Of a DNA stretch of 64,000 bases, positions 61,647 to 64,000 are shown in pieces. Position 1 is the stretch's first letter, and the number at the start of each line of letters is the position of its first letter. Under the pieces are notes generated by a model. The model saw only the letters and a list, made by a program, of their open reading frames with translations, was not told where the DNA came from and did not search any database. The DNA lies in assembly GCF_000474945.1 (NCBI RefSeq), contig NZ_AXDW01000001.1, positions 1 through 64,000 of the forward strand, given 5' to 3'. Made by a program: the position numbers and the translations under genes. The DNA comes from Solimonas soli DSM 21787 (GTDB lineage Bacteria; Pseudomonadota; Gammaproteobacteria; Nevskiales; Nevskiaceae).

Positions 61647-62834
61647 CTAGAGCCTGAGGCCGCGGCCGAGGTCGGCGGTGAGATCCCGCAGATCCTCGAG
61701 ACCGACGGCGACCCGCAGCAGGCCCTCGCCGATGCCGGCGTGCGCGCGCGCCTCGGCGCTGATGCGGCCGTGCGTGGTGCTGGCCGGATGGGTGATCGTG
61801 GTGCGCGTGTCGCCGAGGTTGGCGGTGATCGAGATCAGCCGGGTGGCGTCGATCACCTTCCACGCCGCTTCGCGGCCGCCTTCGACCTCGAAGGCGACGA
61901 CCGCGCCGTAGCCCTTCTGCTGCCGCTGCGCCAGCGCGTGCTGCGGATGCGTGTGCAGGCCCGGGTAGAACACGCGTTTGACGGTCGGCTGCTCGCTGAG
62001 CCATTCGGCGAGACCGTGCGCGTTCTCGCAGTGCGCCTTCATGCGCGCCGCCAGCGTCTCCAGGCCCTTGAGGAACACCCAGGCGTTGAACGGACTGAGG
62101 CAGGGTCCGGCCGTGCGCATGAAGCCGAACACGTCCTTGCCGACGCGCTGCGCGTCGCCGACGATCGCGCCGCCGACGCAGCGGCCCTGGCCGTCGATGT
62201 ACTTGGTCGCCGAATGGATGACGAGATCGGCGCCGAGCTTGAGCGGCTGCTGCAGCACCGGGGTCAGGAAGCAGTTGTCGACGCAGAGCAGCGCGCCATG
62301 GCGATGCGCGATGTCGGCGAGCGCGGCGATGTCGACCAGCTCGACCAGCGGATTGGTCGGCGTCTCGGCGAACAGCAGGCGCGTGCTCGGACGCACCGCC
62401 TGCTCCCAGCCGGCGAGATCGCCCTGCGCGACGTAGCTGACTTCGATGCCGAACCTGCTCAGCACATTGTTGAACAGGTTGATCGTCGAGCCGAACAGGC
62501 CGCTCGAGGTGACGACGTGATCGCCCTGCCTGAGCAGCGACAGGCACAGCGTCAGCACCGCCGCCATGCCGCTCGCCGTCGCCACGCAGCTCTCGCCGCC
62601 TTCCATCGCCGCGAGGCGCTTCTCGAAGGCCTCGGTGGTCGGATTGGTGAAGCGCGAATAGATGTAGCCGGGCTCGCTGCCGGCGAACACCGCCGCCGCC
62701 TGCGCGGCGCTCTCGAAGACGTAGCTCGAGGTCATCGAGATCGACGCCGAATGCTCGCGGTTGCCGGTGCGCGGCTCGGCGGCGCGCACGCCGAGCGTGG
62801 CGCTGCCCCAGTCCGGATCGAAGAATTCGTTCAC
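61647..62834 (-). CDS. metZ: O-succinylhomoserine sulfhydrylase
   Basis: 395-residue PLP enzyme making homocysteine from O-succinylhomoserine and sulfide in the direct methionine route. Seen: SYVFESAAQAAAVFAGSEPG, YSRFTNPTTEAFEKRLAAME, the PLP-phosphate loop SGMAAVLTLC, DNCFLTPVLQQPLKLGADLV and the Schiff-base Lys in HSATKYIDGQGRCVGGAI. The GQGR segment is typical of MetZ rather than MetB/MetC. The GTG at 62834 follows AGGAGTG. The leader carries a SAM riboswitch and attenuator, fitting repression by S-adenosylmethionine. The neighbour upstream is purF, a common gammaproteobacterial arrangement. Confidence 0.93.
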   Translation of the reverse strand: MNEFFDPDWGSATLGVRAAEPRTGNREHSASISMTSSYVFESAAQAAAVFAGSEPGYIYSRFTNPTTEAFEKRLAAMEGGESCVATASGMAAVLTLCLSLLRQGDHVVTSSGLFGSTINLFNNVLSRFGIEVSYVAQGDLAGWEQAVRPSTRLLFAETPTNPLVELVDIAALADIAHRHGALLCVDNCFLTPVLQQPLKLGADLVIHSATKYIDGQGRCVGGAIVGDAQRVGKDVFGFMRTAGPCLSPFNAWVFLKGLETLAARMKAHCENAHGLAEWLSEQPTVKRVFYPGLHTHPQHALAQRQQKGYGAVVAFEVEGGREAAWKVIDATRLISITANLGDTRTTITHPASTTHGRISAEARAHAGIGEGLLRVAVGLEDLRDLTADLGRGLRL

Positions 62835-62856
62835 TGCCTCACTCCTGCGGGCAATG

Positions 62857-62892
62857 AAAAAGCCCGCCAGCATCGTTCCATGCCAAACGGGC
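62857..62892 (-). terminator. Intrinsic terminator of the metZ riboswitch
   Basis: On the minus strand GCCCG (62892-62888) pairs with CGGGC (62866-62862), with inner pairing GGCAT/ATGCT, followed by TTTTT (62861-62857). It is mutually exclusive with the antiterminator AAACGGG/CCCGTTT (62905-62899 with 62891-62885). Confidence 0.75.
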
Positions 62893-62896
62893 TCGC

Positions 62897-62965
62897 GCCC
62901 CGTTTAGCGACATTTATTGGCGACCCGAGGCCGCCGCGCCTGCAAGCTGGGAGCAAATCGGCGCG
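62897..62965 (-). ncRNA. SAM-II-like riboswitch aptamer upstream of metZ
   Basis: Minus-strand order: P1 arm CGCGCC (62965-62960), loop GATTTGCTCCCAGCTTGCA (62959-62941), P1 arm GGCGCG (62940-62935), a 16-nt insert able to form a small hairpin, then AATAAATGTCGCTAAACGGG beginning at 62918. The loop start GATTT, the AATAAATGT-GCTAAA 3' block, and CUCCC in the loop able to pair with GGGG in the tail (pseudoknot) are the SAM-II/SAM-V layout. The tail GGGG is also needed by the antiterminator, so ligand binding would favour the downstream terminator and shut metZ off. One variation from remembered SAM-II sequences is GTCGCT in place of GTAGCT. Confidence 0.75.
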
Positions 62966-62971
62966 CGCGCA

Positions 62972-63000
62972 AAGGTAAGACGAAAAGCTTCCGACGGCAA
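62972..63000 (-). promoter_or_regulatory. Promoter for the riboswitch-metZ transcript
   Basis: TTGCCG (63000-62995), 17-nt spacer, TACCTT (62977-62972) on the minus strand. The predicted start at about 62966 coincides with the 5' end of the riboswitch P1 stem, which supports both calls. Confidence 0.5.
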
Positions 63001-63129
63001 GGCTTTCGATGAAGCGCGAGACGGCGTCGCGAGCGGTTCGAGGCCGCGCTTGCCGCGCACAGCGGTGCCGAAGCACGGCGAGCACGGCCGGTGCAGGATC
63101 GGGCCGCGCCGCCGCCGGACCGCGCTGGG

Positions 63130-64000
63130 TCAAGCGTTCGGCAATTCGATGACGGTCTGCGCCTTGCGCCGCGCCGCCTTCGCCGCGTCCGAACGGAACA
63201 GCTCCAGCTGGTTGAGGTATTCGGTCGTGACGTCCTGGGTGATGTACTCGCCGGTGAACACCGAGCAGTCGAAGCGCGAGATGTTCGGGTTGCCGGCGCG
63301 CACCGCGTCGATCAGATCCTCGAGGTCCTGGTAGATCAGGCGGTCGGCGCCGAGCATCTTCTCGAGCTCGTCGACGCTGCGCCCGTGCGCGACCAGCTCG
63401 CTGGAGGTCGGCATGTCGATGCCGTAGACGTTCGGATAGCGCACCGGCGGCGACGCCGACGCGAAATAGACTTTCTTGGCGCCCGCCTCACGCGCCATCT
63501 CGATGATCTCCTTCGAGGTCGTGCCGCGCACGATGGAGTCGTCGACCAGCAGCACGTTCTTGCCGCGGAATTCGAGATCGACCGGGTTGAGCTTCTGGCG
63601 CACCGACTTCTTGCGCTGCGCCTGGCCCGGCATGATGAAGGTGCGGCCGATGTAGCGGTTCTTGATGAAGCCTTCGCGGTAATGCACGCCGAGACGCGCG
63701 GCGAGCTCGGCGCCGGCGACGCGCGAGGTGTCCGGAATCGGGATGACCACGTCGATGTCGTGGTCCGGCCACTCGCGCAGAATCTTCTCGGCCAGCTTCA
63801 CGCCCATGCGCAGGCGCGCCTTGTAGACGTAGATGTCGTCGATCACCGAGTCCGGACGCGCCAGGTAGACGTGCTCGAAGATGCACGGCGAGTAGATCGG
63901 GTTGGCCGCGCACTGGCGCTTGTGCAGCTTGCCGTCGAGCGTGATCAGCACTGCCTCGCCGGGCAGGATGTCACCGAGCATTTCGTAACCGAGCGCGTTC
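63130..64000 (-). CDS. purF: Amidophosphoribosyltransferase, C-terminal part (runs off window)
   Basis: First committed step of purine synthesis: PRPP plus glutamine to phosphoribosylamine. The window shows the last ~290 residues: [36 protein letters not shown] (IFE-VYFARPDS family motif), [37 protein letters not shown] and the PRPP loop [18 protein letters not shown], then [20 protein letters not shown]. The N-terminal glutaminase domain lies beyond position 64000. Directly upstream of the metZ riboswitch. Confidence 0.95.

Follow-up and report, generated by a model that had tools for sequence, protein, structure and literature searches.

The stretch of DNA analysed here (the window) comprises 64,000 nt from Solimonas soli DSM 21787 (order Nevskiales). 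On its minus strand purF (named by eye; frame end at 63130) is followed, after a gap of 295 nt, by metZ (61647–62834), which encodes O-succinylhomoserine sulfhydrylase. The metZ product scores 664 bits against the NCBIfam model NF006003 (cut-off 522) and 558.5 bits against TIGR01325 (cut-off 510), and MetZ was present in 59 of 61 genomes, that of the window included. The GTG at 62834, chosen by eye as the start of metZ, lies behind a ribosome-binding site recognised from its sequence (AGGAG, 62842–62846) and is likelier to be used than the ATG within the terminator stem (62873–62834 region) at which the longest metZ frame opens, so that an automatic annotation may carry 13 extra residues.

The gap holds, in this order, a weak promoter, an aptamer, an antiterminator, a terminator and the ribosome-binding site, all on the minus strand. 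The -35 element TTGCCG (62995–63000) and the -10 element TACCTT (62972–62977) are both weak and are separated by a 17 nt spacer; they were assigned from the sequence and from the upstream stretches of relatives. The SAM-II-type pseudoknot aptamer as a whole occupies 62966–62893. It opens with the 5' strand of helix P1, CGCGCC (62960–62965), placed by a partial Rfam match and by pairing in the alignment, and P1 encloses a loop of sequence GATTTGCTCCCAGCTTGCA on the minus strand. Within this loop, GATTTG (62954–62959) is conserved in alignments with relatives, some of them fetched by pattern, and its UUU would form the third strand of the SAM-II triplex, a role assigned by homology with the structure in PMC6061858. 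It is followed by CTCCC (62949–62953), the 5' strand of P2a and partner of a downstream GGGG (the best helix being CTCC/GGGG), and by GCTTGC plus an A (62941–62947), which the alignment identifies as the 5' strand of the pseudoknot helix P2. The 3' strand of P1, GGCGCG (62935–62940), was again placed by pairing in the alignment.

Exactly where this strand ends, an inserted hairpin, termed P3 here (GGCGGCC-TCG-GGTCGCC, 62919–62935), begins, and AAUAAAUG comes next; G62935 is able to pair in either P1 or P3. The hairpin was delimited by folding and by the arms and pair types found across species. Downstream of it lie AATAAATG (62911–62918), which by homology would be the strand expected in the P1 minor groove, the 3' strand of P2, TC-GCTAAA (62903–62910, with GCTAAA at 62908–62903), and GGGG (62898–62901), which helix search and folding place both in the 3' strand of P2a and in the antiterminator. 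The antiterminator hairpin GCTAAACGGG/CCCGTTTGGC (62882–62908, MFE -15.8 kcal/mol) overlaps the aptamer and the terminator, and the intrinsic terminator (62857–62892) consists of a stem at 62892–62862 (MFE -16.1 kcal/mol) and a run of five U at 62861–62857. A third hairpin, GCGGGC-TTTTTCATT-GCCCGC (62847–62867, MFE -11.5 kcal/mol), has the 3' arm of the terminator in common with it and competes for that arm; it stops just upstream of the ribosome-binding site, and similar letters are seen in several relatives. All the parts named in the original prediction (promoter, SAM-II-like aptamer, antiterminator and U-run terminator) were thus found at 62857–63000 on the minus strand, and the GGGG said to be common to pseudoknot and antiterminator does lie, at 62901–62898, both in P2a and in the antiterminator fold.

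An Rfam scan of the window gave nothing above family cut-offs, the best leader match at relaxed settings being SAM_alpha with 18 bits and an E of 0.079, over P1 and the loop (cut-off 36). Overall, the 131-nt leader showed no extra stability relative to shuffles (z -0.29), and a simple scanner applied to 62700–63200 reported neither a promoter nor a terminator. The case therefore rests on comparison with relatives, and it is this comparison that raises the element above chance. The promoter illustrates the point: it is weak on its own, as about 10% of shuffles reach the score of the window, while 40 distinct upstream stretches of relatives average 8.3 of 12.5 promoter points as compared with 5.8 when shuffled, and most of the 40 contain similar -35/-10 hexamer pairs at a spacing of 16–18 nt. 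A permissive search, run without shuffle control, picked out a terminator-like hairpin with a U run at 36 of the 40 loci examined in the order (the hairpin of L040 extends into the coding region).

From relatives, 30 loci were taken, of which 20 had the core by a simple pattern and 19 were aligned as A1, which omits L006 as nearly identical to L005. Among 16 relatives' loci subjected to the Rfam scan, all nine insert-free leaders matched SAM_alpha at an E of 1 and none of the seven insert-bearing leaders did. Five of the nine exceed the 36-bit cut-off (L024 with 40.3, L012 with 38.9, L010 with 38.7, L015 with 37.7 and L023 with 37.1 bits) and four fall below it (L009 with 35.8, L011 with 35.2, L008 with 30.5 and L032 with 30.4 bits). 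L008 to L012 belong to the same genus as the window, so that L010 and L012 are congeners that pass the cut-off. Judged from sequence, position and downstream gene, the leader of the window appears to be the same element as that of its insert-free congeners plus an insert, and its loss of SAM_alpha score fits a splitting of the model match by the insert.

A local model, R1, built from the 19 rows of A1, scores the window at 73.1 bits (E 6.5e-16), the window being itself one of the training rows. At an E of 0.01, R1 matched in 48 of 85 genomes of the order, again counting that of the window; leaving aside a weak match in G039, the insert is present in 25 of 47 and absent from 22, and one genus holds leaders of both kinds.

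The pairing of the core was analysed in an alignment of 103 sequences, for which 100 loci had been picked by hand. Many rows came from a search whose pattern prescribes the core, and the alignment is therefore biased towards conservation, so that core conservation among the public loci proves nothing alone. Cells of P1 are paired in 93.9% and those of P2 in 99.8%, four of the five P2 pairs being invariant, partly through the fetch pattern; as these four never vary they are uninformative on covariation. For the whole structure, the covariation score was 0.169 as compared with 0.096 for shuffled alignments, a score that none of 500 shuffles reached; with the partners slid it did not exceed 0.070. 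The fifth P2 pair is a long-range pair that joins the nucleotide after GCUUGC with the nucleotide two before GCUAAA (A62941–U62910 in the window). Over 114 loci it is G-C in 98, A-U in 13 (window included), G-U in one and unpaired in two; a few genomes enter this count twice (e.g. L045/L125), and among the 13 A-U loci three are repeat fetches of Solimonas genomes. Over the 103 aligned sequences the figures are 92 G-C, 9 A-U, one G-U and one other. A long-range Watson-Crick pair of SAM-II, joining the final nucleotide of the loop to one further downstream, was predicted in 2007 by mutual information (PMC2258182).

P2a is only weakly supported by the pairing tests, its inner pair being paired in 96% and its outer three in 57% of the 103 sequences, with a permutation p of 0.09 over all sequences and 0.049 in the insert-bearing ones. 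AAAT, within the AATAAATG strand, is found in 103 of 103 rows and was part of the search pattern for many of them. The core nucleotides UUU, UUG and UAAA occur in the window and in the partly pattern-fetched alignments, and by analogy with the SAM-V structure paper they may correspond to SAM contacts. Membership of SAM-II was judged on four features: P1 and P2 covary, with variation within P2 limited to the long-range pair; the long-range Watson-Crick pair is present; the nucleotides conserved around SAM are in place; and the 18 bits of the window lie below the Rfam gathering score of 36 bits.

Unlike the core, P3 varies widely in sequence, and in length from about 16 to 272 nt; no conserved sequence was seen inside it. 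The insert of the window alone has an MFE of -11.0 kcal/mol, and with a 4-nt tail reaches -12.7 kcal/mol (z -3.9 against shuffles). Compared with the RNA insert of the window, GGCGGCC-UCG-GGUCGCC, those of sister species (GGUGUC-UUCG-GACACC, GGAAGACCG-UCG-CGGUCUUCC and GGCGUUU-GUG-GAACGCC) differ in their letters and keep the fold. Distinct inserts, 88 in all, were gathered from genomes of the order and from public ones, and 76 of them beat their own shuffles at p<=0.05. The z-scores derive from mononucleotide shuffles and the sequences are related; the set holds some duplicated genomes, from which identical inserts were dropped, and one of the 88 is L123, which looks like a chance match and was dropped after this test. 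The test gave no result for 14 of 129 loci (L055, L072, L077–L082, L131, L136, L167, L168, L169 and L181), among which L055 and L072 lack the insert and have a shifted core, L077 and L079 are real but odd, and L078 and L080 carry giant inserts.

A count of P3 pairs in a fixed register was given up because registers differ between lineages, and the arms were tested by permutation instead. Over 87 inserts, own arms gave a pairing value of 14.8 as compared with 9.8 ± 0.27 for arms swapped between species, and none of 1000 permutations was as high. In the predicted folds of these inserts every one of the six standard pair types is represented at the outermost position, and five or six types at each of the five levels that follow; such pairs are paired by construction and are informative in their variety alone. 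In alignment A3, 49 of 67 insert rows have an uninterrupted stem of at least 4. The hairpin recognised in the original prediction is thus borne out by folding, by its arms and by recurrence in many Proteobacteria, and covariation in homologues, the lack of which had been named as one refuting outcome, is present in P1, in the long-range P2 pair and in the P3 arms. As pairing is kept while the sequence changes across lineages, selection seems to maintain the hairpin.

Larger structures were seen at the same site. The P3 sites of L078:425-700 (G083) and L080:425-705 (G050) are occupied by inserts of about 270 nt; that of L078 folds as one giant hairpin (272 nt, -151 kcal/mol), and for L080 the folding covered part of the insert. 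The 263-nt core of the L080 insert is a dispersed repeat found in nine places in G050 and six in G083, both loci counted and many copies being partial. In another metZ leader, L079:425-515 (G029), an 83-nt insert between P1 and GCTAAA contains two hairpins, the first of them terminator-like.

P3-bearing elements extend far beyond the order. A public scan with the core pattern and a long gap, one genome per species, retrieved at least 116 stretches, of which 80 were given as loci, and a possible P1 was present by a loose test in 74 of these 80 loci. The records are titled Ralstonia, Cupriavidus, Pandoraea, Undibacterium, Limnohabitans, Legionella and Pseudoalteromonas, among others. This rules out an insert confined to Solimonas or its order, as the R1 class scan had suggested, with 147 of the 150 matches listed being 55–63 nt long. 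At Rfam cut-offs, a SAM family was called in none of 18 insert-bearing public loci. The P3-bearing variant is therefore present in many Proteobacteria, and in the cases tested current models failed to detect it.

Downstream genes were sought in the 1,500 nt from the core with seven reference proteins, six of which came from the loci themselves, and 73 of the 74 loci have a match starting 47–391 nt on (the exception is L123). Types were assigned by best family, which in the case of MetN and NhaC scored below the cut-offs. A methionine gene comes next in 64 of the 74, namely MetX in 31, MetZ in 16, MetH in 8, MetN in 6 and a protein of the cystathionine-synthase family in 3; an NhaC-family carrier follows in seven, an SsuA-family binding protein in two and none of these in one. 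The NhaC-family carrier is found downstream of P3-bearing SAM-II in Pseudoalteromonas records (L137, L143, L146, L148, L158, L183 and L188), and it may be a methionine transporter. In L120 and L128, from records titled Hyphomicrobiales, the P3-bearing element stands ahead of the SsuA-family (sulfonate) binding protein, and in both an additional nucleotide ahead of the P1 3' strand breaks the simple R-Y pair count.

How common the two forms are was estimated by running a strict core pattern (gap of 38 or less) over 369 genomes sampled evenly from the class. The pattern occurred in 115 genomes at 122 places, and a reversed control pattern had no match among the rows shown. A gap of at least 20 was found at five of the 122 places; one (G110) looks like a doubled AAATACAG and four (G000, G044, G124 and G264) are hairpins. 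The P3 form is thus a minor form in this sample, in which longer inserts were missed owing to the gap limit. SAM_alpha exceeded the Rfam cut-off in 30 of the 369 genomes and matched in 117 at an E of 0.001, with none of the four insert carriers among them, and R1 matched in 173 at an E of 0.001, so that the genomes passing the Rfam cut-off are about one sixth of those of R1 (the thresholds differ in kind). Taken in the wide sense, the Gammaproteobacteria commonly carry SAM-II. Tandem SAM-II model matches on the same strand, 54–61 nt apart, were seen at L084:1387-1446 and 1501-1559, L105:1501-1559 and 1614-1673, and L097:1501-1558 and 1620-1683. Viral carriers were also considered and rejected: 31 viral contigs have the core pattern and eight pass the P1 test, but by eye L238 alone is a real-looking SAM-II, which shows how loose that test is.

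The arrangement of the leader suggests how it would work. One arm of the antiterminator GCUAAACGGG/CCCGUUUGGC is the 3' strand of the aptamer and the other is the 5' arm of the terminator, and through this common arm antiterminator and terminator are mutually exclusive. With SAM bound, GCUAAA-C-GGGG would be locked in the pseudoknot (P2/P2a) and the antiterminator would be blocked, allowing the terminator GCCCGUUUGGC...CGGGC-UUUUU to fold and switching metZ off. Without SAM, GCUAAACGGG would pair with CCCGUUUGGC and transcription would continue. The element is most likely an OFF switch for metZ that acts via transcription termination; the OFF layout anticipated in the original prediction is supported by the comparison, and we infer from it that SAM would bind and promote termination. 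SAM-II also precedes metZ in S. meliloti, where it was predicted to terminate transcription (PMC9373788).

We consider it highly likely that metZ is preceded by a SAM-II riboswitch in which an additional helix, P3, separates the 3' strand of P1 from AAUAAAUG, and which is predicted to turn metZ off by termination. The leader is very probably a real SAM-II variant, filed as such and not as a plain member because it has a hairpin at 62935–62919, where SAM-II is described as being without P3 (PMC6061858). That the resemblance arose by chance, in an ordinary attenuator or a protein-bound leader, is in keeping with the sub-threshold Rfam score and the ordinary overall stability, but it is extremely unlikely, given homologues of the same genus that pass the Rfam cut-off, a long-range pair that covaries and the fact that 64 of 74 insert-bearing relatives stand before a methionine gene. 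A variant already in Rfam, "SAM-II long loops" (RF01726), described as an expansion of SAM-II (PMC2864571), invites comparison by its name and its kinship, and its longer loops might be the insert. This we regard as improbable, the comparison being one of model score and description, not of consensus structure: RF01726 does not match the site at an E of 10, in the leader or in the genome of the window, where its one match lies elsewhere (E 8.4), it was found in none of the 18 insert-bearing public loci at its cut-off, and its listed occurrences are in Bacteroidetes and marine samples. The model gave no match in three records tagged Bacteroidetes.

The original prediction had raised a "variant class or SAM-V-like" element. 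SAM-V is an H-type pseudoknot in which the P3 stem-loop adjoins the 3' strand of P1 and leads into an A-rich strand, and its core superposes with that of SAM-II (PMC6061858), so that in topology the suggestion holds, the insert of the window occupying the P3 place of SAM-V. The search proposed with SAM-II and SAM-V models was less kind to it: the SAM-V model RF01826 gave no match to the leader at an E of 10, which, as with RF01726, rules out membership by model, and SAM_alpha, below its cut-off in the window, matches the insert-free congeners and exceeds its cut-off in five of the nine insert-free relatives. As the control region is moreover terminator-like and not a hidden ribosome-binding site, an element that is SAM-V, or intermediate between SAM-V and SAM-II, instead of SAM-II is very improbable.

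A further question is whether the hairpin matters to the riboswitch. It might be a neutral insertion without a role, retained because it folds away harmlessly, a view compatible with our preferred reading in everything save the role of P3, and one to which we give only slightly less than even weight. Close relatives differ in its presence, the same genus having both forms, and a dispersed repeat occupies its place in two genomes, in addition to the wide variation in length and sequence. The pairing kept in many lineages despite sequence change argues against neutrality, but selection acting only against unfolded inserts would fit as well. Within the reading of a P3-bearing SAM-II riboswitch, P3 most likely lies at the end of P1 distal to the binding pocket and props up or stacks on that end; its free letters, its varying presence among congeners and the repeat of about 260 nt in its place make it most likely a structural add-on and not a second sensor.

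Two elements described under other names appear to belong here. The metXZ element of beta-proteobacteria lies upstream of metX/metZ and has six conserved blocks and a possible pseudoknot followed by a potential terminator; it was described as new, with no ligand named in the section on it (PMC4239095). As SAM-II cores precede metX and metZ in beta-proteobacteria, the metXZ element is probably SAM-II, the comparison being with its description and not its alignment. RF02424 (Bp2_287, "Burkholderia sRNA") matched in 63 of the 369 genomes at an E of 0.01, none over its own cut-off. Of 66 sub-threshold matches, 59 coincide with listed R1 matches, always on the opposite strand; three more (G169, G278 and G339) are opposite core-pattern places, making 62 such places, and the remaining four are unexplained. 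Sub-threshold matches antisense to SAM-II were also seen at L086:1469-1608, L083, L091, L097 and L153. Those who described RF02424 observed methionine genes close by and suggested that it acts in cis, without calling it a SAM riboswitch in the sections consulted (PMC3521395). RF02424 is probably a SAM-II leader read on the wrong strand, judged from these sub-threshold matches.

We lean, on balance, towards a broader interpretation: a distinct and widespread SAM-II subclass with a SAM-V-type P3 and terminator control would join both classes in one continuum and would have been missed by the databases as the insert breaks the matches; SAM-II, in its compact and P3 forms, would be the "metXZ element" and, antisense, RF02424; and in some lineages a repeat of about 260 nt would fill the P3 site with the core intact. 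A literature search over titles and the openings of abstracts found no account of a P3-bearing SAM-II. The P3 site shows that a small pseudoknot aptamer can accommodate large inserts at one point, which would help structural studies and sensor design, and in gamma- and beta-proteobacteria the methionine genes under SAM-II control seem to be under-called.

With SAM-II (RF00521) the leader of the window shares P1, the loop GAUUUG..GCUUGC with its GCUAAA partner, the long-range R-Y pair, the G-rich strand of P2a, control by a terminator and the metZ/metX context, and it differs in that a hairpin separates P1 from the 3' strand and that its score falls under the Rfam cut-off. With SAM-V it has the position of P3 in common, but its P1 has 5–6 pairs as compared with 4 in SAM-V and its P3 has 7 as compared with 3. 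In SAM-V the ribosome-binding site is located inside P2a, giving translational control, whereas the AGGAG of the window lies about 50 nt past GGGG and beyond the terminator. SAM-II and SAM-V have been set apart partly by P3, and the occurrence of P3 in a terminator-controlled SAM-II suggests one family with an optional helix.
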